A stretch of DNA of 37,914 nucleotides. Origin: Candidatus Zixiibacteriota bacterium. GTDB taxonomy: Bacteria > Zixibacteria > MSB-5A5 > GN15 > JAAZOE01. Under the pieces are notes generated by a model. That model was given only the letters and a program-made list of their open reading frames with translations. It did no database searches and had not been told where the DNA came from. The stretch is from assembly GCA_030668485.1 (NCBI GenBank), contig DAOUTW010000045.1, forward strand, positions 1-37,914, in the 5' to 3' direction. Below are positions 3,796 to 28,947 of this stretch, in pieces. How positions within the stretch are numbered: position 1 is the first letter of the stretch; every line of letters begins with the position of its first letter. Both the position numbers and the translations under genes were made by a program.

Positions 3796-6777
3796 ATGGC
3801 AACCACTACTATCGAAAATCCAATTCTCAACTCGCCGTACACCGAGCCGAACCGGCATTTTGAGTTCGACGATGAGGGGATTACTGATAAAATCATCGAG
3901 AAGCGGCGCGAAAGCGCCTATTTTGTACCTATCGCACAGCCGAGGCGTCAGAGTAGCAAACAGCTTGAAATAGCCACCGAATGGACCCAGGACCGGGTAA
4001 AATCCAACCAGGAAATTAATCGCATCAGAGACCGGATTGAGGTTTGGCGTAGAGGCAAGTATGCCGGGATTACTAACGTAACTCGGAGGCTTTTGGAACA
4101 TTGGAAAAGCAAAGACCGGGAGCCAAGGCTGTTTTTCTGCCAGATCGAGGCGCTGGAAACCTTTATTTATCTCACCGAGGTTGCAAAGAAATACGGGGAT
4201 ACCTGGATCGAGAATATGATCCGGGAGAAAAACGATATGTTTAATCCGGGATTGAATCGCATTGCCTGCAAGATGGCAACCGGAACCGGCAAAACCTTCG
4301 TGATGGGCATGCTCATCGCATGGCATACACTCAACAAGCTCGAAAATCCCCAAGACAACCGTTTTTCCGATACCTTTCTTATCATCGCACCGGGAATTAC
4401 AATCAAGGACAGATTACGTGTCCTTTTGCCCAGCGATCCCGATAACTACTATCGGAAGTATGACCTGGTGCCTGCTTATATGCGTGAGCAGCTTGGGCGA
4501 GCCAAAATTATTATTGCCAATTTCCACAAGTTCAAACTCCGAGAGCTAAGCAAAGCGCCTCGACTTACGAAAAAGGTCTTACGAGCCGATCAAACTTCTG
4601 CCTTTACCGAAACCCCGGATCAGATGGTCCGCAGAGTGTGCCGCGATCTGGGAAACAAGAAGAAAATAATCGTAATCAATGATGAAGCCCACCATTGCTA
4701 TCGGAAGAAGGAAGAAGCCCCAAAGGAAAAACTGACCCGCGATGAACGCTCAGAGGCCAAAGAGCGTGAGGAAAAAGCCCGTGTGTGGATATCCGGGATG
4801 GAGGCTGTGCAGAAGAAGATTGGTATTCGAGCAATCTACGATCTCTCGGCAACGCCGTTTTTCCTTCAAGGTTCTGGCTACGGCGAGGGAACTCTATTCC
4901 CTTGGGTTGTCTCTGATTTCTCCCTCATCGATGCAATTGAATCCGGTATTGTCAAGGTGCCCCGCGTGCCGGTCTCCGATGATGCCGGTGTCGGCACTAT
5001 GCCGACTTATCGCAATCTCTGGCCCAATATCCGCGATCACCTGCCCAAGAAAGGCCGCAGGGCCTCAGAGGCTTCGGTAGAGCCGAATCTCCCAACAGAA
5101 CTTGAAGGCGCGTTAATCAGTCTTTATGGCAACTATGAGAAGTCATACAAGCTCTGGGAAGGCAACTCGGAAGCTCGCGATAGAGGACTTACGCCACCGG
5201 TTTTTATAGTCGTCTGCAATAATACGACCGTGTCAAAAATGGTCTACGATCATATCTCCGGTTGGGAGAAAACGATATCAGAAGATCAGACCGTCCTGGT
5301 GCCGGGCAAGCTGGCCATATTTAGCAACGTGAAGGATAGTCGATGGATGGATCGGCCCAATACCATATTGGTCGATAGCACCCAGCTTGAATCCGGCGAG
5401 GCCATGAGTGATGAGTTCAAAAAGATAGCCGCTCGCGAAATCGAGGAATTCAAGGCCGAAATGCGCCAGCGGTTCCCCGGACGTGATACCGATAAGCTAA
5501 CCGATGAGGATATCCTTCGCGAAGTCATGAATACAGTTGGCAAATCCGGCAAACTTGGCGAACATATCCGATGTGTTGTAAGCGTGTCGATGCTTACCGA
5601 GGGCTGGGATGCCAATACCGTCACCCATATTCTTGGCGTTCGTGCTTTCGGCACTCAGCTTCTATGCGAGCAGGTAGTTGGGCGTGGTCTGCGGCGACTC
5701 AGTTTTGCTCTTAATGAAAACGACAAATTCAGTCCCGAATATGCCGAAGTCTATGGCGTACCCTTCTCGTTTATTCCCTGCTCAGGATCTACGACAGAGG
5801 TTTTGCCACCGGTCGAAACAACCCATGTGCGAGCCATAGAAGAGCGCAAGGCGCTGGAAATTACATTCCCCCGTCTGACTGGCTATAAATATGAAATTAA
5901 TGCCGAACGACTACATTATGAATTTACGGAAGACTCTCGCTTTGTTCTTTCAACGACCAATATTCCTACCAAGACAGAGTTAGCACCTATCGTAGGCGAG
6001 ACGGTTTATGATACTCTCGATGAATTCAAAAAACACCGGGAGAATGAGGTTGCGTTCTATATTGCCAAAACAACCCTTGAGCGATATTTCCGGGATGATG
6101 ACGGCAATGATCGGCAATGGCTATTTCCACAAATCCTTGAGATAACCAGACGGTGGCTGAAAGAATGCGTCCACCTGAAAGATAATACTTTCATCCAACT
6201 CATGCTTCTGGTCCGTTTTGCTCATAATGCCGCCGAAAAAATCTATCAGGCTATCGCATCATCCGAAAAAACCGAGCCAGTTCTGAAACCGATCCTGCGG
6301 TCCTTCGACAACATCGGTTCATCCAAATATGTCGATTTTGACACGGTCAAACCGACCTATCGCACACCTTCTGAAAAATGCCATGTGTCGCATATCGTCT
6401 GCGATACATTAACCTGGGAACAGAAAATGGCCGAGGCGCTGGAAAGCATGGATGAAGTCCATGCCTATGTTAAAAACGACCGTCTGGGATTCACAATTCC
6501 ATATACATTGGATGGCGAACAGCGCAATTATTATCCCGATTTCATTATCAAAATATGTGATGGACAGGGCAACGGTGAAATGCTTAATCTGATTGTTGAG
6601 GTCACCGGACGGAAGAAAGAGGATAAGGCGGTCAAAGTTGCAACCGCCCGCAAACTCTGGACTCCGGCGGTCAACAATCACGGCGGGCTGGGCCGCTGGA
6701 AGTTTATCGAAATCACTGATCCCTGGGATGCCAAACACATCATTCGCAAAAAGCTTCAACTCCAAGGTGAGGGGTGA
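3796..6777 (+). CDS. Type III-like restriction endonuclease subunit (SF2 helicase-nuclease)
   Basis: This 993-residue protein is a DEAD/DEAH-type DNA translocase fused to a nuclease domain. Visible motifs are Walker A ATGTGKT at 161-167, DEAH at 296-299, motif III SAT at 351-353, and motif VI QVVGRGLRR at 626-634. A C-terminal PD-(D/E)xK-like core has YPD (D915) and VEVTG (E935); the usual lysine of ExK is replaced by threonine (T937). The partner methyltransferase starts 9 nt downstream, so the two form one operon behind the promoter at 3732. The overall plan (about 1,000 residues, then a methyltransferase of about 900) recalls the BPTD_3080-type restriction family that NCBI names; that assignment is from memory. 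In type III enzymes Res hydrolyses ATP and cleaves DNA only together with Mod. The length is normal and nothing suggests a broken gene. Confidence 0.88.
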   Translation: MATTTIENPILNSPYTEPNRHFEFDDEGITDKIIEKRRESAYFVPIAQPRRQSSKQLEIATEWTQDRVKSNQEINRIRDRIEVWRRGKYAGITNVTRRLLEHWKSKDREPRLFFCQIEALETFIYLTEVAKKYGDTWIENMIREKNDMFNPGLNRIACKMATGTGKTFVMGMLIAWHTLNKLENPQDNRFSDTFLIIAPGITIKDRLRVLLPSDPDNYYRKYDLVPAYMREQLGRAKIIIANFHKFKLRELSKAPRLTKKVLRADQTSAFTETPDQMVRRVCRDLGNKKKIIVINDEAHHCYRKKEEAPKEKLTRDERSEAKEREEKARVWISGMEAVQKKIGIRAIYDLSATPFFLQGSGYGEGTLFPWVVSDFSLIDAIESGIVKVPRVPVSDDAGVGTMPTYRNLWPNIRDHLPKKGRRASEASVEPNLPTELEGALISLYGNYEKSYKLWEGNSEARDRGLTPPVFIVVCNNTTVSKMVYDHISGWEKTISEDQTVLVPGKLAIFSNVKDSRWMDRPNTILVDSTQLESGEAMSDEFKKIAAREIEEFKAEMRQRFPGRDTDKLTDEDILREVMNTVGKSGKLGEHIRCVVSVSMLTEGWDANTVTHILGVRAFGTQLLCEQVVGRGLRRLSFALNENDKFSPEYAEVYGVPFSFIPCSGSTTEVLPPVETTHVRAIEERKALEITFPRLTGYKYEINAERLHYEFTEDSRFVLSTTNIPTKTELAPIVGETVYDTLDEFKKHRENEVAFYIAKTTLERYFRDDDGNDRQWLFPQILEITRRWLKECVHLKDNTFIQLMLLVRFAHNAAEKIYQAIASSEKTEPVLKPILRSFDNIGSSKYVDFDTVKPTYRTPSEKCHVSHIVCDTLTWEQKMAEALESMDEVHAYVKNDRLGFTIPYTLDGEQRNYYPDFIIKICDGQGNGEMLNLIVEVTGRKKEDKAVKVATARKLWTPAVNNHGGLGRWKFIEITDPWDAKHIIRKKLQLQGEG

Positions 6778-6786
6778 TTTCGAATC

Positions 6787-9525
6787 ATGGCTGACAAAAA
6801 GGCAAAGACCGCTCGCAAGACCAGCAGCAAGGCAAAAACGACTACCGGGAAAAAGACCTCGAAAACGAAAAAGACAGTTGCCAAAAAGGTGATTGCAAAA
6901 AAGACTACCACCAGAAAAACGGGGGCCCAAAAGCCAAGTACCAGAGTCGATGCTATCAAGCACAAGGACAAGCGGGCTAATATCCCCACCAAGGAGTTGC
7001 GCGGATTCGTGGCTGAAGATGAATTAAAACCCAAAAATATGCTTTACCCTCGTGATCCTTCTCTTGATCCGCAATTGGTCTGGAAGGGCAAAGACGAGCA
7101 GGATAGCGAAGACCTCGCTGTCCCGGTTGTGCCTATCTATATTCAGGAAAAAATTCATCCCCAGGCAATCATCGAAAACGTCCGTACTCAGGCAAAGAAG
7201 GACATACCCGATCATGCTATAGACTTCTTTGGTGATTTCAACAATATCAAATTTGAGGATATGGTTGACTTTTATAAACACGAAGCCAACTGGTCTAATC
7301 GAATGATCCTGGGCGATTCGTTATTGGTCATGGCCAGCCTTGCCGAGAAAGAGAATCTCAAAGGCAAGGTTCAGATGATCTACATCGATCCGCCCTATGG
7401 AATCAAATTTGGATCGAATTGGCAGGTGAGTACACGTAATCGAGAAGTAAAGGATAGAAAACAGGATGTTACTCGCGAACCCGAACAGGTGCGTGCATTT
7501 CGTGATACATGGGAATTAGGAATACATTCATATCTTGCCTATTTGCGTGATCGCTTCATGGCGTCGCGGGATCTCCTGACTGAAACAGGCAGTATCTTCA
7601 TCCAGATCGGTGATGAAAATGTCCATTTGGTTCGGTGTCTTCTTGATGAGGTTTTCGGAAGTGGCAATTTTTGCTCGTTAATCACAATTATTAAGACAAG
7701 TAGTCAGACATCGGAATTATTGCCAGGGATTAGTGATTATATTATCTGGTATTCACGAGACCGCAACCAGACCAAATATCGAAAACCTGTTCAGGAAAAA
7801 ACCGAAGAAGACTTATGGATGTTTGACCGGGTTGAGCTGGAGGATGGTTTAATTGTGGCGGAGGATAATGCGAAGGCTCAAATAGCATTAAGCAGAGGAA
7901 ATGGCAAACTTATTCATTTCGAAGATTTGACTTCACAGACCGGCAATGTTACCACCAGAGTACAATACGATTATGATGGAGGACGGTTCAAACCACCAGG
8001 CAGCCGCGGATGGCGAACAAATCAAAAGGGGCTTAGGAAGCTTGAATATGCGAAACGCCTAATCGTTTCTGGTAACCGGCTTTCCTATCGACGATATGCT
8101 GATGACCTGCCTGTAAAGGAGATGGGCAATTTATGGGATGATTTACCGACAGGATACGGCAGCGACGAGAGGCTATATGTAGTTCAGACCAATAGCGAAA
8201 TAGTCAAACGCTGTCTCCTGATGTCTACCGATCCCGGCGACCTCGTCCTTGATCCCACCTGCGGAAGCGGGACGACCGCATACGTCGCCGAACAATGGGG
8301 GAGACGATGGATCACTGTTGATACCAGCCGAGTGGCTTTGGCGCTGGCGCGAACCCGATTGATGGCAGCAAAATATCCATATTATCACCTGGTCGATTCG
8401 CCCGAAGGTATTAAGAAAGAAGCCGAAATAACAGGGAAGACACCGCCCGATCATAAAACCGATAACGATATCCGCAAGGGATTTGTCTATAAACGAGTGC
8501 CGCATGTTACTCTGAAATCAATTGCCAATAATTACGAGATCATAGAAGGCATGACCCGCGAAGAAATTGACAAAGCCATCGCCCGCCACGCAGATGTCGA
8601 ATATCTATACGATCAACCCTACCAGGATAATAAACGCATCCGAGTATCAGGGCCGTTCACGGCAGAAAGCCTCAGCCCATACCGTGTACTCTCACCGGAA
8701 GTGGAAAGACCCGCCACCGAAGTGACCGGCGAACAGGAATCAACTGCCGGGCAGTTTGCCACTCTGGTAATCGAGAACCTAAAAAAATCAGGCGTTCAAA
8801 ACACGCAGAAAAAAGAACGTCTTAAATTCGATTTTCTTGAACCGCATTCCGGTTTATACGTGCATGCCACCGGCGAGTACACGGATAAGGGTGGCAAAGC
8901 TAAACGTGTGGCCGTGTCGGTAGGTCCCGAGTATGGCGCAGTCGGCCCGGATCAGGTCAAGGAAGCGGCCAAGGAAGCTGTCCAGGGCCTCGGCCATGAT
9001 TTGTTGATTGTTTGTGGATATGCCTTTGATCCTCACGTCTCGGAAGAAGCCTCCAGATACGGCAAGCTGGCAGTACTGCCAACTCGCATCAATGCCGAAC
9101 TGTGGATGAAAGACGATCTGCTCAAGAAAACCGGCGCGGGCAATCTTTTCATGGTCTTTGGCGAACCGGATATTTCCATCAAAACCGGCAAAGACGGCAA
9201 GATCACGGTCGAAATTCACGGTGTCGATATCTACGATCCCACTACCGGCGAAATCCGCAGTTCCGCCACCGATGATATTGCCTGCTGGTTTATCGATACC
9301 AATTATAATGGCGAGAGCTTTTTTGTCCGCCATGCCTACTTCACCGGCGGCAAGGAGCCATACGACAAGCTCAAACGCGCTCTCCGAGCAGAAATCGACG
9401 AAGTCGCTTGGAGCCAATTATACAGCGCCAAAAGCCAGCCCTTCGAAAAGCCGGAAACCGGCAAATTCGCCGTCAAAGTAATAAACCACTACGGCGACGA
9501 AGTCCTGAAAGTTTACGAGGTGTAA
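6787..9525 (+). CDS. Site-specific DNA adenine methyltransferase, type III Mod-like, with lysine-rich tail
   Basis: This 912-residue protein carries DPPY at 201-204 (catalytic motif IV) before the SAM-binding motif DPTCGSGT at 489-496. That order defines beta-class N6-adenine or N4-cytosine methyltransferases, as in type III Mod. The stretch between, about 205-485, should hold the target recognition region. The first 50 residues are a histone H1-like tail with 17 lysines and 2 arginines among T/A/S, probably disordered and DNA-binding. Residues from about 560 to 912 extend well beyond a typical Mod and may contact the restriction subunit. The ATG lies 9 nt after the res stop; a GGTGAGGGG ribosome site sits inside the end of res. 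A hairpin with a T-run follows at 9661-9704. It should protect host sites and direct the restriction subunit to unmethylated ones. Confidence 0.9.
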   Translation: MADKKAKTARKTSSKAKTTTGKKTSKTKKTVAKKVIAKKTTTRKTGAQKPSTRVDAIKHKDKRANIPTKELRGFVAEDELKPKNMLYPRDPSLDPQLVWKGKDEQDSEDLAVPVVPIYIQEKIHPQAIIENVRTQAKKDIPDHAIDFFGDFNNIKFEDMVDFYKHEANWSNRMILGDSLLVMASLAEKENLKGKVQMIYIDPPYGIKFGSNWQVSTRNREVKDRKQDVTREPEQVRAFRDTWELGIHSYLAYLRDRFMASRDLLTETGSIFIQIGDENVHLVRCLLDEVFGSGNFCSLITIIKTSSQTSELLPGISDYIIWYSRDRNQTKYRKPVQEKTEEDLWMFDRVELEDGLIVAEDNAKAQIALSRGNGKLIHFEDLTSQTGNVTTRVQYDYDGGRFKPPGSRGWRTNQKGLRKLEYAKRLIVSGNRLSYRRYADDLPVKEMGNLWDDLPTGYGSDERLYVVQTNSEIVKRCLLMSTDPGDLVLDPTCGSGTTAYVAEQWGRRWITVDTSRVALALARTRLMAAKYPYYHLVDSPEGIKKEAEITGKTPPDHKTDNDIRKGFVYKRVPHVTLKSIANNYEIIEGMTREEIDKAIARHADVEYLYDQPYQDNKRIRVSGPFTAESLSPYRVLSPEVERPATEVTGEQESTAGQFATLVIENLKKSGVQNTQKKERLKFDFLEPHSGLYVHATGEYTDKGGKAKRVAVSVGPEYGAVGPDQVKEAAKEAVQGLGHDLLIVCGYAFDPHVSEEASRYGKLAVLPTRINAELWMKDDLLKKTGAGNLFMVFGEPDISIKTGKDGKITVEIHGVDIYDPTTGEIRSSATDDIACWFIDTNYNGESFFVRHAYFTGGKEPYDKLKRALRAEIDEVAWSQLYSAKSQPFEKPETGKFAVKVINHYGDEVLKVYEV

Positions 9526-9660
9526 ATTTCCGCAATAATTGGCCTTTTCTGTCATACAATTTCACCAATTTTATGAAAACTACATCTACTATTGCACTTT
9601 TTGACCATTTTCGTGTGTAAATCAAAAAAATGTATTGATTTTTATTAACTCTGTCCTTAT

Positions 9661-9704
9661 AAAATCTCCATGAGGATTCGCGAAGCGAAAATTTGGAGTT
9701 TTTT
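9661..9704 (+). terminator. Probable intrinsic terminator of the R-M operon
   Basis: Nested stems CTCCA/TGGAG (9666-9670 with 9694-9698) and TTCGC/GCGAA (9677-9681 with 9685-9689) are followed by six T (9699-9704). The stem is interrupted by unpaired bases, so strength is uncertain. Confidence 0.55.
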
Positions 9705-9722
9705 ATGACTTAGAAAAAAGAA

Positions 9723-9823
9723 CCCCGGCAGGTGCAACTGCCGGGGAATGCTTGCAGAAACGTTTCCTGAACGTGCCCTTTCGGGCTGCAGAGCTTGCAA
9801 GCGTATATTTGTTTATACGCTTG
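9723..9823 (+). other. Densely structured non-coding RNA-like region
   Basis: Within 100 nt there are four stem-loops: a perfect 9-bp stem CCCCGGCAG/CTGCCGGGG (9723-9731 with 9738-9746), ACGTT/AACGT, GCCC/GGGC, and a perfect 10-bp stem CAAGCGTATA/TATACGCTTG (9798-9807 with 9814-9823). An outer stem GCTTGCA (9750-9756) with TGCAAGC (9796-9802) would enclose the middle two, but it shares bases 9798-9802 with the last hairpin, so the two are mutually exclusive. No T-run follows the last hairpin. It lies in the gene-free stretch 9526-9999, in which I see nothing else except the terminator. I recognise no known RNA family, and its strand is assumed from the flanking genes. Confidence 0.45.
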
Positions 9824-9999
9824 TCAAAAGGCTTAGTCAAGTGGAAATGAGAAGTATTTTTTGAATATTTTCAAGAAGTATAAACTCATTGAAGCTCAAG
9901 ATTAAGCCCACAAGTTAGAATCTGCATGCATTCCCCCATGAAAGCCATCTGCCGGGTTGTTTTAAGCTAAGAAAAGATAACATCTTGGAAGAAACCAGC

Positions 10000-10173
10000 A
10001 TGGATGCTGCCCAGCAGATCATATCAGACTGGCAGGAATATTCTGACCGGTCTTTAACAGATGAGGACGTCAGAGAGATCGTCGAAAACCTCGATGGCTA
10101 TTTCTCTATTCTGGCTCGCTGGAAGCGCGAAAGGGAAGATGCCGAAAAGAAAATTCCGCCTGAATCGCATTAG
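10000..10173 (+). CDS. Small acidic protein of unknown function, first gene of the recombination cassette
   Basis: The 57-residue product begins MDAAQQIISDWQEYSD and is mostly predicted helical, with an acidic middle and a charged KREREDAEKK tail. An in-frame TTG at 9985 is possible, but the ATG at 10000 has GGAAGA 7 nt upstream and is preferred. The end overlaps the next gene by 35 nt, which suggests co-translation. I do not recognise a family; position ahead of an HTH protein and an integrase suggests an accessory role, but this is only context. Confidence 0.5.
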   Translation: MDAAQQIISDWQEYSDRSLTDEDVREIVENLDGYFSILARWKREREDAEKKIPPESH

Positions 10174-10585
10174 GGTCAGGCGCTCGTATTCGACCGCCGA
10201 AATCTGTGACCTTTTTAATTGTCATGTCCAGACTGTCCGCAACTGGCATCGGCGAGGAATGAAATCTATCGATCCGAACAATCGGCCTTTATTATTCATC
10301 GGAACCGAGATCAAGAGATTCTTATCCGAGCGTCAAAATTCTCGAAAAATCAAACTCAAAGAGGATGAATTCTACTGTCCCCGATGCCGCAATGCTCGGC
10401 AATCAATACCGGAGGAAATCGGGATATTTGAGACTGGAAGACAGATGGGAAAACATGATGAGCAAGTTCTAATCAAGGGTGAATGCAAAGAATGCAATTG
10501 TTCCCTAACCAGATTCGGTACAAAGAACGGCGTGAAAGGCACCTTTTTTGAGCGAATCATAACGCAAGGCAGTGGAAGATTATAA
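10139..10585 (+). CDS. HTH and zinc-ribbon DNA-binding protein
   Basis: The 148-residue protein starts at the ATG at 10139, which follows AAAGGGAAG; a longer frame back to 10061 only mirrors the upstream gene in another frame. A basic N-terminus is followed by a helix-turn-helix of MerR/excisionase style at about 17-42 (YSTAEICDLFNC, then TVRNWHRRG). A zinc ribbon is built from C80-x2-C83 and C116-x2-C119. It stands 49 nt ahead of the tyrosine recombinase. Such a protein could be a recombination directionality factor or a transcription regulator of the cassette; the sequence does not decide between them. Confidence 0.7.
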   Translation: MPKRKFRLNRIRVRRSYSTAEICDLFNCHVQTVRNWHRRGMKSIDPNNRPLLFIGTEIKRFLSERQNSRKIKLKEDEFYCPRCRNARQSIPEEIGIFETGRQMGKHDEQVLIKGECKECNCSLTRFGTKNGVKGTFFERIITQGSGRL

Positions 10586-10634
10586 GGTGACTCCATTGCT
10601 ATCTAAAACACTCACTTAGGGGAGGGCAAAAAGA

Positions 10635-11735
10635 ATGAAAATCAATGCCGGGAATGAGCGAATGAAACGGAAGTATTTCAAATGGTGCAGAGAAGCATTG
10701 GGCTTTTCAGATTCGACAATCAACAGTATTGAAAAATCGATATTGCTGTATGATGACTTCAGCAAAAATGCCAATTATGTGACATTTTCGGAGTCAGGGG
10801 CAACTCGTTTCAAAAAATGGATTTCTGACAGAAAGAACAATGGAAAATCGTTATCGGCCACTACGATTTATCATCACCTGCGTCATTTGAAAAACTTCTT
10901 CACCTGGTTATCCGGCCAAACAGGTTTTAAGTCAAGAATACGCCTGGATAGCGTTTCGTATCTTACGATGGATAAGAAAAAGGCCCGAGAGGCGCTTTCT
11001 CCAAAATCTGTGAAGGCTCCTACTTTGGAGTATGTTAAACAACTGACTGATTCGATTGAGATCAAGACCGAAATTGACCGCCGGGATCAGGCGCTTATAT
11101 CATTTCTTCTCTTGAGTGGTATGCGGGACAAGGCCATTGCAACACTACCCCTGGGCTGCTTTGACTGGAAAACTTTCGAAATCCGGCAGGACCCCAAAGC
11201 TGGTGTAGATACGAAATTCGGCAAGACCATCATATCTACACTAATTCAATTTGACAAAGGACTCATCAAGTATGTGGTCGAGTGGGCAGAATATTTGGAG
11301 AAGGACAAGTTATTTGGCCTTGCCAACCCTCTTTTCCCTCGAAGCAAGGTAGAGCAAATCAAAGGCGGTCTCACATTTATCTCTAAAGAGGTAGAGCCTG
11401 TCTTCTGGAAAGGAACCGGCAGTATCCGAGAAATCCTAAAAAAGAGGTCCACTCAGGCTGGTCTTGATTATTACTATCCGCACTCATTCCGTCACGCAGC
11501 AGTTGCTATTGCATTCAAGCACTGCCAAAACGGCGAACAATTAAAGGCAATCAGCCAGAATCTCGGACACAGCAATTTGGGGACGACAGTAATGTCGTAT
11601 GGGAACCTCGATGATTTCCGAGTGCGGGAAGTGGTTTCTGGTCTGGACTTTAGTCCTCATGAAAAACCTCAAATAAGCCGTGAGGAAATCGACAAGGCGA
11701 TTCGATTTCTGTCTGAGGTCAAAGAAAAGACTTGA
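10635..11735 (+). CDS. Tyrosine recombinase (phage-integrase family)
   Basis: The 366-residue enzyme has an N-terminal SAM-like core-binding region (about 8-105, with KSLSATTIYHHLRHLKNFF) and a C-terminal catalytic domain. Active-site residues are visible in order: R164 (SGMRDKA), H283 and R286 (HSFRH), H312 (LGHSN), and the nucleophile Y322 (MSYGN). The ATG is preceded by GGAGGG at 10621 with 8-nt spacing. It lies 32 nt ahead of a small Cro/CI regulator and upstream of a large serine recombinase, an unusual pairing. Family members cut and rejoin DNA through a 3'-phosphotyrosine and often integrate elements into tRNA 3' ends; a tRNA-Gln lies 1.7 kb downstream. All catalytic residues are present, so it is probably active. 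Confidence 0.92.
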   Translation: MKINAGNERMKRKYFKWCREALGFSDSTINSIEKSILLYDDFSKNANYVTFSESGATRFKKWISDRKNNGKSLSATTIYHHLRHLKNFFTWLSGQTGFKSRIRLDSVSYLTMDKKKAREALSPKSVKAPTLEYVKQLTDSIEIKTEIDRRDQALISFLLLSGMRDKAIATLPLGCFDWKTFEIRQDPKAGVDTKFGKTIISTLIQFDKGLIKYVVEWAEYLEKDKLFGLANPLFPRSKVEQIKGGLTFISKEVEPVFWKGTGSIREILKKRSTQAGLDYYYPHSFRHAAVAIAFKHCQNGEQLKAISQNLGHSNLGTTVMSYGNLDDFRVREVVSGLDFSPHEKPQISREEIDKAIRFLSEVKEKT

Positions 11736-11769
11736 CACAGTAAACATAAAACGATATATTACGATATAT
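11732..11769 (+). promoter_or_regulatory. Near-consensus, apparently leaderless promoter with direct-repeat operator
   Basis: TTGACA (11732-11737), a 17-nt spacer and TATATT (11755-11760) form an almost perfect sigma70 promoter. The expected start is 11767, one base before the ATG at 11768, so the message would have practically no leader, and no Shine-Dalgarno is visible. ACGATATAT is repeated at 11751-11759 and 11761-11769, across the -10 box and start codon. That is a plausible operator for the regulator encoded immediately downstream. Confidence 0.6.
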
Positions 11770-11961
11770 GAAACAGGAAGAGAAATTAATAGAGAACCTG
11801 GAAGAGTACCGATTGGAGAACCGGATCACTCAGCAGGAATTGGCCAAAATGCTCGATGTGGCATTTGTAACCGTTAGCCGATGGCTAAATGGACACCAAT
11901 TGCCAAACAAGATTCAGGCGTATCATATCAGGAAGCTGATTTCCGGCAAGGGACGGAAAAA

Positions 11962-11965
<4 letters not shown>
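11768..11965 (+). CDS. Cro/CI-type (XRE) HTH transcriptional regulator
   Basis: This 65-residue protein is essentially one helix-turn-helix domain: ITQQELAKMLDVAFVTVSRW at about 21-40, then LNGHQLPNK, with a basic GKGRKK tail. It starts right at the predicted transcription start of the promoter at 11732, and its stop overlaps the serine recombinase start by ATGA (11962-11965), so the two are translationally coupled. It probably represses its own promoter and thereby the recombinase, perhaps through the ACGATATAT repeats. The family call is firm; the autorepression is inference from layout. Confidence 0.85.
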
Positions 11966-13473
<1,508 letters not shown>

Positions 13474-13776: not shown

Positions 13777-16700
13777 TTACTTGACCAGCATCATTTGCCT
13801 GGCCATACTCACACCATCGCCGATCAAGCGATAGGTGTAAATGCCGCTCGCCAGACTATTCCCGTAATAAGTGAAAGAATAAATACCGGCGGTCTTGCGA
13901 CCCAGATCGATCCGATCAACCACCTGCCCCGATACGTTGTAAACCTCGAAAGACAGCGACATAGCCTTGTCAACCGTGTATGATATCGTGGTCGAGGGGT
14001 TGAATGGGTTGGGATAATTCTGCTTCAGTTCCAGACTCATCGGCAGTAAATGGCCGTTCTCATCGACATCGGTGACATTGATTTCGAGGCTTCCATTATT
14101 GAGAACCAGTTCATAAGGATTACCGACCTCATCGGTCAATTCGCAACGTCCGGTAAACTCAAGCGGTACCGTAGTGCCCGGGCCGGGAAGAATATGAGTG
14201 TGCAGAATCGCCAGGGTTGCTCCGTCATCGAGAGTCAGAGGACTAAGGAAATCATCCCAAATGATATGAGCCTCGCCAGTGCCGCCGTTGACGGTCGGAT
14301 CGGTCATATGAGCCGATGATATGCTGTCGACCACCACATAAGCCACATCATAGGTGATATGGATTTCCACGCCGGCTACTGCATTGAAATTCGAGACCAG
14401 TATCGGGATATCCAACGGCCCGGAGGAATTGGCGACCAAGGACGGAATCGTTAGTTCGACACCGGCATAAGCGCGACTACTTGGTGCCGGCATATCCGGA
14501 TACCCGGTGAAGTTGACATCACCCATACGGACTCCGTAAAAGTCGACCATACTGACATCGCTGTTGGTGATCATTACGTCGCATGTCCTCGGAGCTGTCG
14601 ACCAATTGTCCATATCGAGCATACTCGCGGCATCGACAAAGGCCCAGTTACCGCTCGGAAGAGCATCCAGGTCGGCCAGGTAACGACGAATAATTACGAC
14701 ATCGGAAACAGTAACCGTGGCGCTATTGTTAACATCTCCGGCTATCATTTGGAACGGCGAATAGAACAGTTCCTCAAAAGCGATATGCCTGCGAATCTTG
14801 ATAACATCGGCTACCGAAACACCGGGATCGTCATCCGGGCGATCGGGATCAACCATATAACTGCCCGGAGCCAGGTCGGTGAAACGGTATTCACCCATCC
14901 CGCTCGTCATCTCCATGATCGACGCCCCACCGGTCAGATCAACAGTGACACCGGGGAAACCCATTAATGAATCGAAGTAAGGATCGGCAAACCAGACCGT
15001 ACCGGCCAGATCGTAATTGGATGAGATGACCATTAGATCACCACCGCAATAAATAACTCCGGTATAAGGTATCCCGTAAGGATCGGTGATCTCATTGATC
15101 CCGGCCCATTCCAACGGGCTGTTCTGGCCAACATCACCGATAACCGTGAACCACAGCGTCATGATCATTTCGCCCTGAGCGACCGTGATCGGATTGACAA
15201 TGTCATCCCAGACGTAATGCACCTGATTATCGGCAAAACCGATAGTCGGTCCGGCCATGTAACCGGAGGTAACCGAATCAGGTGACAGGACCGCCGGATC
15301 GTAATCGACATTGAACTGCAAACCGGCAACATCGGTAATTCCGTTAGTATACACCGGAACTCCAACCGGCATGCCCTGAGGTCCATCCACCTCGGCAATA
15401 TCGAAAGTGCACTCGTCGCAATTAACGATAAACAGCTTTAGCGTCACCATCTGCGGTGAATGAAGGGCTGCATCGGAAGTGACTACCACGTCCAGCGAAT
15501 GTTGACCGTATTCCAGCATGTCGGTCATAATTTCAAAGGTTACCATCGAAGGAGCGGTGCCGCTATGATCGGATAGCACAACAGCCTCAACAGCGTCAGC
15601 TATCCAGTCAAGGGTTTCATAACCGACATTGGTGACCTCAAATGATCCGGCAAGGATTTCGCCGCGACACACCTGACCGTAATCGATCATGTCCGGCGTC
15701 ACACTGAGAATCGGAACCGCACCGAGATTGAGGATAACTATCACCGGATAAGGAGTGTTGAAACCGTTCGACTCGAAAGTTGCCGTAGTTTCATAAGTCC
15801 CCGGCACCAGACCGGTAGTATCGATGTTGAATGTCACATCGTCAAATTGGTTGCCCGAAGCAGGAGTATTAAACAGCCAGTCGGCGCCATCGGCTACCGA
15901 CCACTCCAGCACTCCGCCGCAGGTGTTAGTGACCGGGAAACTGATCGACGGAACGATATCACCCAGATCAAACTCGAACACTACCGTATCGGTCGGGAAA
16001 TCGAAACATGGCGTATCGGATATGTCAATACCACCGGCCGTGAAATCGGTTTCTTTCGGATCGCCGACAGCATCGGTGAATTCAAAGATACCGTTCGGCT
16101 CGATAAACGTGCTGTCGATCGGCACGAACTGAGCCACGGCAGAAGCATCTACTGTGAAGAACATCCTGGCTATTACACCAGATCCGGGACTGAGAATCGG
16201 GCCGCCCATGGCAAAGCCGAAGATGTGGATTGTTCCGGCAGCGTTATCGATGGTGATGACGCTTTCATCCAGGGCCACCATCCGCGTGCCCTGGAACGAA
16301 ACCGAATCGCAGAAAACATCGGTATTCACAAAACTTAAAGGTAGCGAGAACTGACCGGTAAAAGTAGCGTTATCATATAAAACTTGGACTTCGACATGTT
16401 CACTGGGGAAGCCACTGACTGTCTCGATGAAAACATTATCGGTTGCAAAAACCGTCAGGCTGATCACCGTATGTTGCGGATCGTTGGTGGCTGCCGGATC
16501 GCTTACGAAAACGGTATCATAATAAGTTCCCGGCCCGATACCGATGATATCGAATGACAGATTAATCATTCCATCACCGGTTCCTGACGTGGGATCAAGC
16601 ATTACCCACCCGGTCTGATTAGAAGCGGTCCAATTAAGCGTCCCGCCGCCGGTATTGGTTATATTTATCTGTTCGCCGGCGAGCGTTCCACCTTCATACA

Positions 16701-19143
16701 CGGACAATTCTATAAGAGTTGGATCAAGCGCGATAGTGGAAGGAGGAGTGTTGATGGTTAACATCACCGGAACATCAACCGGACTGTTGGTCGCTGCTGG
16801 ATCGGAAACCGTAATCGTATCGTAATAAACGCCGGCTGGTAATAAAGCCACATCGAAAGCAAGAGTAACCGTGGCGTCGCCGGAACCGCTTGTCGGATTG
16901 AGCATGATCCAGCCGGAAAGATTGGCAACTGTCCAAGCTAATGTTCCGCCACCGACATTGGAAATCATCAAATCGTTGTCCGGCAAAATGTCGCCTTCAG
17001 TAATCGTATAATTAAATTCAATCGGATCAACCGCGATAACCGGTAGAGCCTCGATAGTAAACGTCACCGGCACCAGAACCGGACTGTTGCTGGCGATAGG
17101 ATCGGTAACCGTAATATCAGTCGTGTAAACGCCCGGCATGAGACCGGTCATATCGACACTAACCGTAACGCTGCCAGCACCCGTCCCAGACAGCGGAGTC
17201 AGATCCAGCCAGTCAGCAGCTTCGCTGACCGTCCATTCCAGTGTACCGTCACCGATATTGGTGATCGCCAGAGTCTGTGACGGAGGGTTGGCGCCGCCTT
17301 CAGTGGCGTCAAAATTGAATTCTGTCGGAGTCACGCTGATAACCGGAATCGGTATGGCATTGATCGTCAAAGTCACTACCGAATACTGCGGATTGTTGGT
17401 GGCATTGGGATCGGATACCGTAATCGTATCGTAATAAGTACCGGCTGTCAGGCCGCCAACGTCAAAGCTCATGGTTACCACACCGTCACCGGAACCGCTG
17501 GTGGGGACCAGAGTCATCCATGCCGTCTGATTGCCGGCGGTCCAGTTCAACAGACTGCCACCGACATTGCTGATGTTCAACAGATCGCCGGCCAGTCCGC
17601 CACCTTCGGTGATGGCATAGTTAAAGCTGGTCGGATCAAGAACGATGGTGGGGGGAGGAGATTCCACTTCAACCATCACCGCAGCTTTCTGAGGCGAATT
17701 GCTTGCTGCCGGATCGATGACGGTGATGGTATCATAATAGGTTCCGACCGTCAAACCGGCGACATCGAAACTCAGGGTAACCACCCCGGTTCCGGTTCCG
17801 CTGGTCGGGCTGATCATCAACCAGCCGGAGATGTTTGCGGCGCTCCAGTTGAGAGTGCCGCCCCCCCCGTTGGTTATGCCCAACATATTTGTGGGCAGGC
17901 CGTCACCCTCGGTTATGGTATAATTAAACTCTGTCGGGGTAAGAACGATCGCCGGAGGCGGTTCTTCGACCACCAGCATTACCGTCGAAGTCTGTGGATC
18001 ATTGGTCGCCGCCGGATCGGAGACCGTAATCGTATCGTAATAAGTACCTGCTGGTAGAGAGGCGATGTCAAAAACCATTGTTATAATACCATCGCCGACT
18101 CCACTACCCGGGGTACGTTCCAACCACGCTGATACATTACTTGATGTCCAGTTGAGTGTACCGCCGCCGCTGTTGGTTACTGATAGCTGATCGTTGGGTA
18201 ACGCGTCACCTTCCGTCACGGTGTAGGAGAAACTGGTGGGGCTGAGGACAATAGTCGGCGGAGGCTGTTCGATAACCAGCGTTACCGAGACGGTTTGAGG
18301 ATCGTTAGTGGCGGTGGGATCGGAGACCGTGATCGTGGCATTATATGTTGTCGCCGAAAGCCCGGTAATATCCACCGCAAGAGTAACTGATCCATCTCCC
18401 GCACCTGAGGTCGGTGTCAGTGTCAGCCAGTCGGCATTGTCATCAGCGGTCCAGTTCAGGCTGCTGGCGCCGACATTGGTGATGTTGAGGGTTTGATTAC
18501 CCGGATCAACACCCCCCTCGACGGCGTTAAATGTAAACGAGGTCGGAGCGAGGGCTATGGTCGGGTCGGTCTGCAGATCGCCATATCTCATTTCTCCCTG
18601 TTTTACCTGGGGAACGAAATTGAATCCACTGGTAAGGGTCAGCGCGAAATTTCCGGCCGGAGGATAGAAAGTGGAATCGAAAATTATGACCTGGTCAGTA
18701 GTAGCCGGATTGACCGAAAAATAGGCGGTATAGATAAGGCCGTCGCCGGCATGGAGATAATCTTCCATAATGATTACCATGCCTGCCTGCAGTCGTCGGT
18801 TAGTGTTGTCTATCGAAAAAAGCAGGGTATTTATATAATCGATCCGAGTGCCGACGAAAGAAACCGAATCGCAGACGATGTCGGGTGAATCCCATTTCAT
18901 AGGCAGGTTAAAACCGCCAATATCCTCGTCATTGTAAAGTGTCACCGGAACCACAAAACTGGTCGTCCCGAGGGGAATATCGGGAGCCTCAAACCTCACC
19001 GTATCGGGAATCCCGGGATCTTCCGCATCTGGGCCGTTGAAGGTGAGCTGTTGTAGGTCCGGTTCAATGCTGTTCTGCGCCGCGACAAATCCGCTCAACG
19101 CAAAAGCAAACATAGCTACAAAAAGGACAACCTTCATATTCAT
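13777..19143 (-). CDS. Giant secreted cohesin-like/BACON/dockerin protein with T9SS sorting domain
   Basis: The ATG at 19143 sits 6 nt after GGAGG; a TTG two codons earlier is less likely. The product is about 1,788 residues. In order: signal peptide (1-24); a cohesin-like domain (about 40-185); seven BACON-like repeats of about 100 residues (about 195-904; typical GGGTLNW...W...PTSGTGDG...GTYYDTITVSDPAATN); a second cohesin-like domain (about 904-1045); two diverged BACON-like domains (about 1045-1247); a third cohesin-like domain (about 1248-1380); an SdrD-B-like beta domain; a dockerin pair (about 1440-1500; DPGVSVADVIKIRR and GDVNNSATVTVSDVVIIRR); a fourth cohesin-like domain (about 1562-1695); and a C-terminal T9SS type A sorting domain (NYPNPFNPST, ending in YRLIGDG...QMMLVK). 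It should be exported by Sec, moved across the outer membrane by T9SS and held on the surface. Its ligand is unknown. Confidence 0.88.
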   Translation of the reverse strand: MNMKVVLFVAMFAFALSGFVAAQNSIEPDLQQLTFNGPDAEDPGIPDTVRFEAPDIPLGTTSFVVPVTLYNDEDIGGFNLPMKWDSPDIVCDSVSFVGTRIDYINTLLFSIDNTNRRLQAGMVIIMEDYLHAGDGLIYTAYFSVNPATTDQVIIFDSTFYPPAGNFALTLTSGFNFVPQVKQGEMRYGDLQTDPTIALAPTSFTFNAVEGGVDPGNQTLNITNVGASSLNWTADDNADWLTLTPTSGAGDGSVTLAVDITGLSATTYNATITVSDPTATNDPQTVSVTLVIEQPPPTIVLSPTSFSYTVTEGDALPNDQLSVTNSGGGTLNWTSSNVSAWLERTPGSGVGDGIITMVFDIASLPAGTYYDTITVSDPAATNDPQTSTVMLVVEEPPPAIVLTPTEFNYTITEGDGLPTNMLGITNGGGGTLNWSAANISGWLMISPTSGTGTGVVTLSFDVAGLTVGTYYDTITVIDPAASNSPQKAAVMVEVESPPPTIVLDPTSFNYAITEGGGLAGDLLNISNVGGSLLNWTAGNQTAWMTLVPTSGSGDGVVTMSFDVGGLTAGTYYDTITVSDPNATNNPQYSVVTLTINAIPIPVISVTPTEFNFDATEGGANPPSQTLAITNIGDGTLEWTVSEAADWLDLTPLSGTGAGSVTVSVDMTGLMPGVYTTDITVTDPIASNSPVLVPVTFTIEALPVIAVDPIEFNYTITEGDILPDNDLMISNVGGGTLAWTVANLSGWIMLNPTSGSGDATVTLAFDVALLPAGVYYDTITVSDPAATNSPVDVPVMLTINTPPSTIALDPTLIELSVYEGGTLAGEQINITNTGGGTLNWTASNQTGWVMLDPTSGTGDGMINLSFDIIGIGPGTYYDTVFVSDPAATNDPQHTVISLTVFATDNVFIETVSGFPSEHVEVQVLYDNATFTGQFSLPLSFVNTDVFCDSVSFQGTRMVALDESVITIDNAAGTIHIFGFAMGGPILSPGSGVIARMFFTVDASAVAQFVPIDSTFIEPNGIFEFTDAVGDPKETDFTAGGIDISDTPCFDFPTDTVVFEFDLGDIVPSISFPVTNTCGGVLEWSVADGADWLFNTPASGNQFDDVTFNIDTTGLVPGTYETTATFESNGFNTPYPVIVILNLGAVPILSVTPDMIDYGQVCRGEILAGSFEVTNVGYETLDWIADAVEAVVLSDHSGTAPSMVTFEIMTDMLEYGQHSLDVVVTSDAALHSPQMVTLKLFIVNCDECTFDIAEVDGPQGMPVGVPVYTNGITDVAGLQFNVDYDPAVLSPDSVTSGYMAGPTIGFADNQVHYVWDDIVNPITVAQGEMIMTLWFTVIGDVGQNSPLEWAGINEITDPYGIPYTGVIYCGGDLMVISSNYDLAGTVWFADPYFDSLMGFPGVTVDLTGGASIMEMTSGMGEYRFTDLAPGSYMVDPDRPDDDPGVSVADVIKIRRHIAFEELFYSPFQMIAGDVNNSATVTVSDVVIIRRYLADLDALPSGNWAFVDAASMLDMDNWSTAPRTCDVMITNSDVSMVDFYGVRMGDVNFTGYPDMPAPSSRAYAGVELTIPSLVANSSGPLDIPILVSNFNAVAGVEIHITYDVAYVVVDSISSAHMTDPTVNGGTGEAHIIWDDFLSPLTLDDGATLAILHTHILPGPGTTVPLEFTGRCELTDEVGNPYELVLNNGSLEINVTDVDENGHLLPMSLELKQNYPNPFNPSTTISYTVDKAMSLSFEVYNVSGQVVDRIDLGRKTAGIYSFTYYGNSLASGIYTYRLIGDGVSMARQMMLVK
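16440..18567 (-). repeat. Seven in-frame BACON-like repeats of about 300 bp
   Basis: Repeat starts fall near 18567, 18256, 17955, 17650, 17342, 17042 and 16738, a spacing of about 300 bp. Each encodes the same pattern from (T/V)IxLxPTxF to SDPAATN(D/S)P. The copies are clearly diverged in DNA, unlike the near-identical repeats at 1-1800, so this array is old or held by selection. Confidence 0.85.
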
Positions 19144-19341
19144 TATCAACCTCCGGTCACTGGTTTTTGCTATACAAAATCCCCACGAAGTATTCCTAAA
19201 GGAGACTATTTTTTTATCTCAAGATTATATTAATACTCTACCACTTAGCAATATAGCCTACTTTCATTGATTGTCAACATCGAATGAACGCCAGAAGTGC
19301 CTTATTTTTATACAGTTGCAAACTTTTGCGGCATTTGTAGT

Positions 19342-26517: not shown

Positions 26518-28947
26518 ATGAAGCGTCGATCGATTGCTTTGGCAGTTTTATCTCTCACTATTCTTGTTTTGCCGGCCCTGGCGCCAGCGACAACTCAGGT
26601 TAATGAGGGATATATAGCGACAAACCTGAATGGCATGCCGTTGGCCTTTACGCAAAACAATGGCCAATGGGATGAGCAAGTATTATTTCGAGCCGATGCC
26701 GGTTTGGCAACGGTCTGGATCACCAAAGAAGGCGTATATTATCAGTTCACCCGCCGAATCGAAGAAGGAAGTGACTGGAGTGCCGATCCTGAGCAGTTTC
26801 TGCCGGATAAGTTCGGACTCGAACGCGACAGTGTCGAGCAGATGGTAATCAAGGCCACCTTCGTCGAGGCCAATATCAATCTTAGCGCCGCCGGCGAAGA
26901 GGTCATGGAGTACAAATGCAACTACTTCTTTGGAAACGACCCGGCCCAATGGCGTACAGATGTCCCCAACTACAGCGCGGTCATTTTGAAGGAAATTTAT
27001 CCTGGAATTGATCTCCGCTACTACGGCAACGGCGATGGCAAGCTGGAGTATGATTTTATTGTCGCCCCCGGCGCGGATATTTCGTGGATTCAGGTTCAGT
27101 ACGAGGGGGCAAACTCGGTATCGGTCGACCAATCCGGTCGCCTAGTGGTGGCGACTGACTGGACAGACGTAATCGAGGAGACGCCAAGGGTCTTTCAGGT
27201 TGTTGAGGGAAGAGAAATCGCCATAGAGGGCGAATACGAACTTCTAAGCGACAACACTTTTGGCTTTCATCTTGGCCAAGGCTATGACCCGTCCCTGCCG
27301 GTGGTTATCGATCCCGTACTTTCTTATAGCACTTACCTGGGGGGAGGGGATTCTGACGAGTCTCATGGTATTGCGGTTGACGGTTCAGGATGTGCGTATG
27401 TGATTGGTTGGACACAGTCTTCCGATTTCCCCACTCAGAATCCGTATGATGGCAGTTACAATGGCGGTTCTGATGTATTTGTGTCCAAGCTGTCGGCGGC
27501 AGGAAATGGCCTGGTTTATAGCACTTACCTTGGAGGAGGACATATTGATCGCGGTTATCGTATTGCGGTTGATGATTTAGGATGCGCGTATGTGACGGGT
27601 TATACGTGGTCTTCGGATTTCCCGACGCAGAACCCGTATGACGGCAGTCACAATGGCAATTCTGATGCATTTGTGACCAAGCTGTCGGCGGCAGGGAATG
27701 GCTTGGTGTATAGCACTTACCTTGGCGCAATTTGTGATCAGGGTTCTGATGGCGGTATGGGTATTGGGATTGACGGTTCAGGATGTGCCTATGTGGCAGG
27801 TTGGACTCAGTGTTCTGACTTTCCGACGCAGAATCCGTTTGATGGCAGTTACAATGGACTATATGATGTTTTTGTCACCAAGTTTTCTGCGGCAGGGAAT
27901 GACCTCGTGTACAGTACTTACCTGGGGGGAGTAGATAATGATGATATCTGGCGTATTGTGGTTGACGGTTCAGGATGCGCGTATGTAACAGGTTGGACGG
28001 AGTCTTCCGACTTCCCGACGCAGAATCCGTACGATGACAGCCACAATGGAGGTCGAGATGTTTATGTGACTAAGCTGTCGGCGGCAGGGAATAACCTCAT
28101 ATACAGCACCTACCTCGGGGCAGGAAGTAAGGATGAGGGTTGGGGTCTTGCGGTTGATGGCTCAGGATGCGCATATGTGACCGGTCATACGTGGTCTTCC
28201 GACTTTCCGACGCTGAACGCCTTTGACGCAAGTTATAATGTAGATTCTATTACTAATTATTCTGATGCTTTTGTGGCCAAGCTGTCATCGGCAGGGAGTG
28301 ACTTGGTGTATAGTACTTACCTGGGTGGAGAAATCAGTGATGGGGGTTACGATGTTTCAGTTGACAGAGTGGGGTGTGCATATGTGATTGGTAAGACAAA
28401 TTCTTTCGACTTTCCGACACTGAATGCGTATGATGGTAGTTTTAATGGTGATTCCAACACTTTCCTTCCTGATGTTTTTGTAACCCAGTTATCGGTGGCA
28501 GGGAATGGCTTGGTGTACAGCACTTATCTTGGGGGCGAAAGTTCTGAATACGGTATTGGTATTGCGGTTGACGGTTCAGGATGCGCGTATGTTACCGGTT
28601 ATACGATGTCTTCGGATTTTCCTACGCAAAACCCGTATGACGGCAGTCTCAATGGCTATAAAGATCCTTTTGTGACCAAGCTGACATACGTCTGCGATTG
28701 CCTTCCCGGCGACGCCAATGGCGACGGTAGTATCAACGCCGGTGACGCCGTATATATTATTGCTTTTGCATTCCAGGGCGGTCCGGCGCCGACTCCGTAT
28801 GCGACCTGCAGCGGTGACGCCAACGGTGATTGTCAGTGTAACGTCGGTGATGCCGTGTACCTGATCAGCTACGTCTTCAAGGGCGGACCAGCGCCGGTCA
28901 CCTGTGATGATTGGGTGGCGAATTGCGGTACGCCGATTTACAAGTAA
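26518..28947 (+). CDS. Secreted SBBP-repeat beta-propeller protein with dockerin pair
   Basis: The 809-residue protein starts behind GGAGGCG with a signal peptide (MKRRSIALAVLSLTILVLP, cleaved near 24). Residues about 30-265 form the conserved domain that usually precedes SBBP repeats (FTQNNGQWDEQVLFRAD, then YPGIDLRYYGN). Seven SBBP repeats of about 62 residues start at about 268; each has YSTYLGG, the AVDGSGCAYVTG type, and SDFPTQNPYDGS, and they should form a beta-propeller. The C-terminus from 726 is a dockerin type I pair with calcium loops GDANGDGSINAGD (731) and GDANGDCQCNVGD (766). No T9SS tail is present. A dockerin on this protein and cohesin-like modules on the giant protein raise the possibility of docking, though neither pairing nor ligand is shown. 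Confidence 0.88.
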   Translation: MKRRSIALAVLSLTILVLPALAPATTQVNEGYIATNLNGMPLAFTQNNGQWDEQVLFRADAGLATVWITKEGVYYQFTRRIEEGSDWSADPEQFLPDKFGLERDSVEQMVIKATFVEANINLSAAGEEVMEYKCNYFFGNDPAQWRTDVPNYSAVILKEIYPGIDLRYYGNGDGKLEYDFIVAPGADISWIQVQYEGANSVSVDQSGRLVVATDWTDVIEETPRVFQVVEGREIAIEGEYELLSDNTFGFHLGQGYDPSLPVVIDPVLSYSTYLGGGDSDESHGIAVDGSGCAYVIGWTQSSDFPTQNPYDGSYNGGSDVFVSKLSAAGNGLVYSTYLGGGHIDRGYRIAVDDLGCAYVTGYTWSSDFPTQNPYDGSHNGNSDAFVTKLSAAGNGLVYSTYLGAICDQGSDGGMGIGIDGSGCAYVAGWTQCSDFPTQNPFDGSYNGLYDVFVTKFSAAGNDLVYSTYLGGVDNDDIWRIVVDGSGCAYVTGWTESSDFPTQNPYDDSHNGGRDVYVTKLSAAGNNLIYSTYLGAGSKDEGWGLAVDGSGCAYVTGHTWSSDFPTLNAFDASYNVDSITNYSDAFVAKLSSAGSDLVYSTYLGGEISDGGYDVSVDRVGCAYVIGKTNSFDFPTLNAYDGSFNGDSNTFLPDVFVTQLSVAGNGLVYSTYLGGESSEYGIGIAVDGSGCAYVTGYTMSSDFPTQNPYDGSLNGYKDPFVTKLTYVCDCLPGDANGDGSINAGDAVYIIAFAFQGGPAPTPYATCSGDANGDCQCNVGDAVYLISYVFKGGPAPVTCDDWVANCGTPIYK
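27319..28680 (+). repeat. Seven in-frame SBBP repeats of about 190 bp
   Basis: The TATAGCACTTACCT-type segment coding YSTYLGG recurs seven times through 27319-28540, followed by similar GCGGTTGACGGTTCAGGATG segments. DNA similarity between copies is high, so the copies are probably still being homogenised. Confidence 0.85.

Follow-up and report, generated by a model that had tools for sequence, protein, structure and literature searches.

A T9SS-sorted cohesin and dockerin protein of Zixiibacteriota, apparently fused to its neighbour's cohesin, as a candidate cellulosome-like surface scaffold

The gene P0001, which lies on the minus strand of the window (the whole stretch of 37,914 nucleotides of Candidatus Zixiibacteriota DNA that was analysed), encodes a single chain in which cohesin-like domains, BACON repeats and a dockerin are combined with a C-terminal type IX secretion system (T9SS) sorting tail. 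The preferred reading, which is given somewhat better than an even chance, is that P0001 would serve as a cellulosome-like surface scaffold working by cohesin-dockerin pairing, fused to the cohesin and tail of a former partner, and that dockerin proteins encoded across the genome would dock on such surface cohesins. An original prediction, made from the letters of this DNA, had named most of the modules and suggested a scaffold; it gave no strand, and it missed the CNA-B-like holder of the dockerin, the fusion with the neighbour's cohesin and the genome-wide parts list. The open reading frame (ORF) spans 13777-19149, with a probable ATG start at 19143 preceded by GGAGG, and profiles place its modules in the order signal peptide, cohesin 1, seven BACON repeats, cohesin 2, two BACON repeats, cohesin 3, CNA-B-like module with dockerin, cohesin 4 and T9SS tail, as listed here.

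13777..19143, minus strand: whole P0001 gene, 1788 aa, T9SS-sorted cohesin/BACON/dockerin protein (ORF, translation, domain profiles)
19078..19143, minus strand: putative signal peptide (by eye)
18565..19014, minus strand: cohesin-like 1, FxLP/DSVSF class (own profile; class profile reaching the PDB cohesin 4uyp, E 3e-4)
16450..18561, minus strand: BACON repeats 1-7 (Pfam and own profile)
15961..16437, minus strand: cohesin-like 2, FxLP/DSVSF class (own profile; class profile against the PDB; genome profile search)
15421..15957, minus strand: BACON repeats 8-9 (own profile)
15022..15417, minus strand: cohesin 3, predicted type I-like fold (PF00963 over its first half, above cut-off; AlphaFold2; 4uyp_A)
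14494..15021, minus strand: predicted CNA-B/transthyretin-like module with the dockerin inside (AlphaFold2, pLDDT 94.1, pTM 0.88; structural alignments)
14662..14841, minus strand: dockerin that appears inserted in the CNA-B-like module; loop of repeat 1 degenerate, repeat 2 GDVNNSATVTVSD canonical
14071..14460, minus strand: cohesin 4, apparently partner-derived (6kgf_A fold match; trees)
13777..14046, minus strand: T9SS type A C-terminal sorting tail, apparently partner-derived (PF18962, TIGR04183; identity, tree)
13396..13469, minus strand: tRNA-Gln (CTG); in the related loci L089 and L090 a small cohesin-T9SS gene sits between this tRNA gene and the large gene
28705..28875, plus strand: GGPAP-type dockerin at the C-terminus of the SBBP protein (26518-28947), a possible cargo class (PF00404, 26 bits, over cut-off)

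Profile searches of each module, which the original prediction had proposed, confirmed the modules that it had named. Its nine BACON-like repeats were borne out as 7 + 2 by a dedicated profile, with BACON_2 of Pfam matching eight stretches (166.9 bits), and its T9SS tail passed the cut-offs of both PF18962 and TIGR04183 (29.6 bits for the latter, cut-off 23). Its four cohesin-like domains also hold, cohesins 3 and 4 by profile and fold and cohesins 1 and 2, more weakly, by profile. When P0001 was searched as a single sequence, Pfam recognised no more of the cohesins than the N-terminal half of cohesin 3, at 32.7 bits against a cut-off of 24.1, and cohesin 4 alone gave no Pfam match at E<=0.01. 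A profile of the class formed around these two domains (24 sequences) retrieved 28 PDB rows at E<=1, with cohesins in rows 1-25 and a best E of 4e-10, and 17 of the 24 members match PF00963 at E<=0.01. Cohesins 1 and 2 seem to be cohesin-like domains of a separate class, with weaker support than cohesins 3 and 4: their class profile reached two rows of the PDB, each of them a cohesin, at E 3e-4 and E 0.95, and the 168 bits scored by cohesin-like 1 in a search of its own genome come from a profile that includes cohesin 1 itself.

Modelling of residues 1245-1710 with AlphaFold2, from an alignment of 72 locus rows picked from 111, gave a mean pLDDT of 92.5 and a pTM of 0.79, and in this model cohesins 3 and 4 have the predicted beta-sandwich fold of a cohesin. 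Cohesin 4 aligns with 6kgf_A over 129 residues (Z 19.0, rmsd 1.3 Å) and cohesin 3 with 4uyp_A over 130 residues (Z 17.6, rmsd 1.9 Å). A chance match to an Ig-like domain was ruled out by the PDB profile rows (25 of 28 cohesins) together with these fold matches; a phage origin was ruled out separately, the 466-aa region having no match in the phage collection. For the model from cohesin 3 through the CNA-B-like domain and dockerin to cohesin 4, the top Foldseek match was the cohesin-X-dockerin end of CipA from Clostridium thermocellum (4fl4_C, E 9e-12), with 3kcp also among the best. This best fold match shares with P0001 the order of cohesin, Ig-like module and dockerin. The domain angles differ from those of CipA, since the rmsd reaches 10.9-11.5 Å over 224-231 residues (4fl4_I against model residues 1-249: Z 17.0, 231 aligned, rmsd 11.5 Å). 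In CipA, the X module stands ahead of the dockerin as a separate domain, whereas the P0001 dockerin appears to be inserted before the last strands of the CNA-B-like domain.

The dockerin pair of the original prediction gained support from its family profile and the PDB, and was narrowed in one respect: by eye, the calcium loop is canonical in repeat 2 only, the loop of repeat 1 being without its position-1 acid, a degeneracy that counts against the scaffold reading. On its own the P0001 dockerin scores below the PF00404 cut-off of 22.9 (17.5 bits, or 22.5 for the domain alone). Of the 35 PDB rows that the family profile retrieved at E<=1, most are dockerins or dockerin-bearing enzymes (best 4uyp_B, E 1.6e-11), PF00404 is matched at E<=0.01 by 21 of the 22 family members, and the helices of both repeats are predicted in the model of the CNA-B-dockerin module. 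Across 11 rows of the Zixiibacteriota type, KIRRHLA and KIRRYLA are the commonest residues of the repeats, with the basic RR pair standing where type I dockerins have KR.

The holder of this dockerin emerged mainly from structure. The SdrD_B profile reached 22.2 bits on P0001, below its cut-off of 29.7, and in the AlphaFold2 model of the module alone (input alignment of 95 of 107 rows) strands flank three helices on both sides. SdrD, CnaB and carboxypeptidase-D regulatory domains can be aligned with the module, the alignments extending to the strands before as well as after the helices: all 81 residues of 5aq0_A are aligned over model residues 3-166 (Z 7.6) and 101 residues of SdrD (10ps) with Z 8.9, Z values near 8 being modest and the sub-cut-off SdrD_B match agreeing in direction. 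No solved dockerin occurred among the 50 matches listed in that search; another structure listing placed type II X-dockerins at ranks 11, 23 and 26. The compact predicted module differs from an X-dockerin dyad, in which a separate X module lies N-terminal to the dockerin, in that its sandwich strands flank the dockerin helices on both sides, and the dockerin seems to interrupt a CNA-B domain ahead of its final strands. The CNA-B-dockerin module recurs in T9SS proteins of Bacteroidota and Zixiibacteriota.

Cohesin-like domains lacking a dockerin-binding face were what the original prediction had set against its scaffold; in the class of cohesins 3 and 4, for which the face was scored, that face is conserved. 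Among the 24 Zixiibacteriota-type cohesins, outward conservation was 0.58 over the 14 positions of the binding face versus 0.36 over 16 positions of the other face (p 6e-4), and for 62 other rows, nearly all from Bacteroidota, plus the query row it was 0.46 versus 0.29 (p 0.005); the position lists were set by strand alternation after the column table was known, with strand 1 excluded, and the p values are descriptive. The residues kept in the 24 cohesins are G at 349 (100%), E or Q at 351 (82% and 18%), H at 353 (82%), N at 377 (83%), H at 384 (85%) and E at 426 (87%), and at several of these face positions the Bacteroidota-rich rows carry others (Q, T, T, S, N). In P0001 the conserved set is intact in cohesin 4 and partly kept in cohesin 3, with Q and N replacing E and H; cohesins 1 and 2 are without the E/H face residues of this class. 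When the region was compared by hhalign (probability 67, E 5e-5) with what we take to be the CipA sequence, CipA Asn37 and Asp39 fell on G349 and E351. According to the available text of PMC5772552, the Ser/Thr motifs of the dockerin are contacted by Asn37, Asp39, Gly123 and Ala125.

Conservation of this kind bears on a quite different account, in which the modules, although cohesins and dockerin by descent, would be generic spacers of an adhesin, beta-sandwich and calcium-binding, and the tree pattern described below would reflect domain shuffling that means nothing for function. Such remnants fit the degeneracy of the first calcium loop, the divergence of cohesins 1 and 2, and the existence of non-cellulosomal cohesins and dockerins, which Peer et al. 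in 2009 reportedly found to be widespread. Since the face is conserved in two lineages, the C-terminal dockerins retain two near-identical repeats (25 of 28 consensus positions, in 19 of the 30 listed sequences) and the genes are linked, this account is considered improbable.

The fusion became apparent from comparison of loci. In L089 and L090 (L108 is a longer copy of L090) the order SecA, VanZ, large gene, small cohesin gene and tRNA-Gln is conserved: SecA, glycosyltransferase-like, M23 peptidase, DUF819 and VanZ genes resembling those of the window flank the large gene on one side and tRNA-Gln on the other, with SecA, DUF819 and VanZ assigned by eye. L099 has the same flank minus DUF819, its locus ending at the other side. 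Between the large gene and tRNA-Gln, L089 and L090 hold an ORF of 260 or 274 aa made up of a signal peptide, a cohesin and a T9SS tail. This small gene is absent from the window, where tRNA-Gln follows directly after P0001. The cohesin 4 and tail of P0001 are 36-45% identical to four such small proteins versus 28-34% to the ends of eight large proteins, and in a tree of cohesin plus tail P0001 joins the small proteins at 100/100, apart from the ends of its orthologues. A tree of the cohesin alone gives the grouping with small partners 68/70, and the group of main cohesins that excludes P0001 98/96. Because the P0001 end groups with the small proteins and the small gene is missing, the large gene appears to have lost its own cohesin and tail and gained those of its neighbour. 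This lineage-specific fusion was found in one genome, the large and small genes being separate in four relatives (L089-L092).

Window positions 3796-13473 carry genes for type III restriction-modification (ResIII, N6_N4_Mtase) and for two enzymes of recombination, a tyrosine integrase and a large serine recombinase; the ORF of the latter runs into the tRNA-Gln gene on the opposite strand; at the same tRNA, L089 holds a recombinase piece of 156 aa that is 65% identical. A mobile element probably uses a shared attachment site near tRNA-Gln, and it may have contributed to the loss of the small cohesin gene.

Linkage between the two kinds of gene was also counted over a wider set of loci. In 9 of 13 distinct loci with room downstream, a cohesin gene begins no more than 386 bp after the CNA-B-dockerin gene or the last gene of its cluster, one overlapping by 43, and in the remaining four no cohesin gene lies downstream; the 13 leave out same-contig copies, loci at contig ends, the window, a weak partial match (L101) and a module fragment (L096), the last of which is likewise followed by a multi-cohesin gene. 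Of the nine linked genes, four are small cohesin-T9SS genes, two look by eye like lipoprotein genes with FN3 and cohesin, and three encode multi-cohesin proteins. One neighbour of two CNA-B-dockerin genes, the 2073-aa ORF at L087 10445-16663, which combines a T9SS tail with five cohesins of the 3/4 class, is the best scaffoldin candidate found. Elsewhere, ORFs of 238 aa (L102, 5239-5952) and 256 aa (L098, 4954-5721) combine a signal peptide (by eye), a cohesin and a GGPAP dockerin, the layout of an adaptor scaffoldin.

The same neighbourhood of modules within single chains invites another explanation, namely that CNA-B-dockerin-cohesin-T9SS forms a rigid C-terminal stalk of large adhesins, through packing in cis or calcium-stiffened spacers, and recruits nothing. 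Across Bacteroidota and Zixiibacteriota, 62 of 111 near-full CNA-B-dockerin modules are followed by a detected cohesin at a near-constant 15-27 residues, 57 of the 62 then by a T9SS tail, a share that is biased upward since the set was ranked by similarity to a cohesin-containing query. The pTM values of the region and of the module suggest defined packing, and giant BACON-rich chains resemble adhesins. Small cohesin-only T9SS proteins and multi-cohesin proteins such as that of L087, in which dedicated profiles found no dockerin in cis, speak against a stalk, as do the conserved face and the nine loci with a cohesin gene after the dockerin gene. A purely structural cassette is held to be less likely than the scaffold, and is the more serious of the two alternatives.

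A scaffold needs partners, and the genome that encodes P0001 has many. The genome-wide count of dockerin proteins that the original prediction had suggested came to at least 146 ORFs with 150 PF00404 matches, all over cut-off; this is a lower bound, as 150 of 359 candidates were scored, best first, and ORFs were separated by contig, strand and length only. A GGPAP-type motif gave 246 matches versus 0 for the reversed pattern. In 29 of the best 30 dockerins the ORF ends 63-68 residues past the dockerin start, and in one 82. T9SS tails over cut-off occur in 79 ORFs, and two ORFs carry both a tail and a listed dockerin, a near-exclusion that describes the best-scoring, mostly C-terminal dockerins, weaker ones being unlisted and P0001 itself having both. 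That cargo dockerins are mostly without a T9SS tail, so that their crossing of the outer membrane is unexplained, also counts against the scaffold reading. The T9SS machinery is represented by SprA, with 597 bits over its pieces.

Cohesin-like domains number about 47 in this genome: 5 of the cohesin 3/4 class, 24 of the cohesin 1/2 class (20 used, the four weakest matches being left out) and 22 of a GGFDF class. The total is soft because the GGFDF class is cohesin-like on weak grounds, its PDB rows at E<=1 comprising 5 MHC chains beside 11 chains of cohesins or scaffoldins, for which the best E is 0.0034. The 22 divergent GGFDF domains lie in 20 ORFs, several of which, when read, carry a dockerin-like stretch with long inserts after the domain, another cis layout. 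T9SS proteins that are small and cohesin-only occur at lengths of 272, 287 and 428 aa, the longest having a pair of cohesins, and lie on the contigs C62, C95 (two cohesins) and C119. One genome holds both a candidate multi-cohesin scaffoldin (P0001, four cohesins) and dockerin-bearing enzymes (some peptidases among the ORFs counted above). A second large surface protein is encoded at window positions 2-3385 (minus strand), where an open-ended ORF of at least 1128 aa matches PEGA and, in 4 stretches, divergent InlB B-repeats.

As for cargo, Pfam searches of 28 of the 30 best dockerin ORFs identified C25 peptidases in three, M1 in three, S8 in one and PAD_porph in one, together with PcRGLX_1st in one and Ig_Rha78A_N in two, names that point to polysaccharide enzymes. 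No catalytic family of glycoside hydrolases was found in these 28 ORFs (up to about 565 aa each) among the families listed, 25 of 28. C25 peptidases are usual T9SS cargo; in the genome of P0001 they carry dockerins. The SBBP protein, which the original prediction had put forward as a recruit, ends in a dockerin whose recognition positions differ, by eye, from those of the internal P0001 dockerin. At the level of the phylum, dockerins occur in 94 of 97 genomes and the cohesin 3/4 class in 14 of 97 at >60 bits, or 45 of 97 at E<=0.001. Since that class is far rarer than dockerins, most dockerins of the phylum must have another partner or role.

Based on these parts, a working scheme can be proposed. 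Briefly, P0001 would be exported by the type IX system by means of its C-terminal tail and sit at the cell surface, where the BACON repeats would act as spacers, the cohesins would offer binding faces to dockerins, and the CNA-B-held dockerin would plug into a cohesin. In relatives, that cohesin would most likely be the one of the neighbouring small gene (signal peptide-cohesin-T9SS). In the lineage of the window, a deletion would have joined the large protein, as far as and including its dockerin module, with the cohesin and sorting tail of the neighbour, leaving the former partners in one chain, and many C-terminal dockerin proteins, peptidases included, would dock on surface cohesins. The CNA-B-dockerin and the neighbour's cohesin are likely a cognate pair, which is singled out because the gene pair is conserved and the fusion exists. 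The surface scaffold of the original prediction is supported in part, as it fits the dockerin ORFs, the cohesin-like domains, the small cohesin-only T9SS proteins and the conserved face. The identities and folds of the domains, the fusion, the linkage of the genes and the parts list come from computation, whereas binding between cohesin and dockerin, the choice of partners and the arrival of cargo at the surface are inferred. A wider proposal is more tentative, with rather less than an even chance: that Zixiibacteriota have a T9SS-anchored, cellulosome-like network for protein breakdown made of lone-cohesin anchors, multi-cohesin scaffolds, cohesin-dockerin adaptors and well over 100 C-terminal dockerin proteins, in which the CNA-B-inserted dockerin would be a new kind of module that plugs scaffolds into the next-door cohesin, with P0001 as a natural fusion, and the C-terminal dockerin would be a second surface tag beside the T9SS tail.

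Cellulosome-type assembly is textbook knowledge for clostridia. The P0001 system should not be filed as a cellulosome, because no cellulase occurs in the sample of 28 dockerin ORFs and no complex is known. The original prediction had held that such an assembly outside Firmicutes would be notable, a claim weakened by the 2021 proposal for Ca. Stygibacter (Cloacimonadota). According to the accessible part of that report (PMC8542988), this was a sequence-based proposal of a large cohesin scaffoldin-like protein with a conserved C-terminal surface-attachment domain, for which a T9SS review is cited, and of dockerin enzymes. Both systems come from Gram-negative candidate phyla, and in both, peptidases (C25 and S8) as well as further secreted enzymes end in a dockerin. 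Ca. Stygibacter differs in having cohesins in tandem together with CBM2/CBM3, and its cargo includes GH18 and GH57 (PMC8542988, same part), whereas the P0001 system has BACON spacers, a dockerin held by CNA-B, a linked gene for a lone cohesin, the fusion, and peptidases as the commonest enzymes in the 28 partial dockerin ORFs, beside one or two matches each to accessory domains of polysaccharide enzymes. No report of dockerins in Zixibacteria was found in the open-access literature searched, and none of the papers listed there for Zixiibacteriota names dockerins; PMC8810776 and PMC10266427, as far as their available text goes, deal with the dockerins or cohesins of other communities and do not touch on a system of the P0001 type. 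Judged by the open-access literature searched, three features are new: the CNA-B holder of the dockerin, the lone-cohesin gene linked to it, and the fusion.

Two further systems offer instructive parallels. The small partner genes, each with one surface cohesin, are reminiscent of the lone surface cohesins of Ruminococcus flavefaciens (the anchor ScaE and an autonomous cohesin; 4n2o, 4wkz), with the difference that ScaE is sortase-anchored, as stated in the accessible text of PMC12484212, whereas the small partners here have a T9SS tail. In Pseudobacteroides cellulosolvens, 78 cohesins and >200 dockerin ORFs are reported, with cellulolytic enzymes and tested binding (PMC5590126, in the part available); the counts for the genome of P0001, about 47 cohesin-like domains and at least 146 dockerin ORFs, are on a similar scale. 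Anchors, scaffolds, adaptors and tagged enzymes, the parts of a cellulosome-like system, occur here with T9SS instead of sortase or SLH anchors.

Taken together, a Gram-negative phylum has a parts list of cellulosome-like size with another anchor, the T9SS, and with peptidases among the sampled cargo. That a C-terminal dockerin and a T9SS tail are hardly ever used together poses a new question, that of the route by which dockerin-tagged proteins come to the surface. Through the natural fusion and the conserved gene pair, a particular cohesin and a particular dockerin can be picked out, which makes the old question of the function of non-cellulosomal cohesins and dockerins directly testable.
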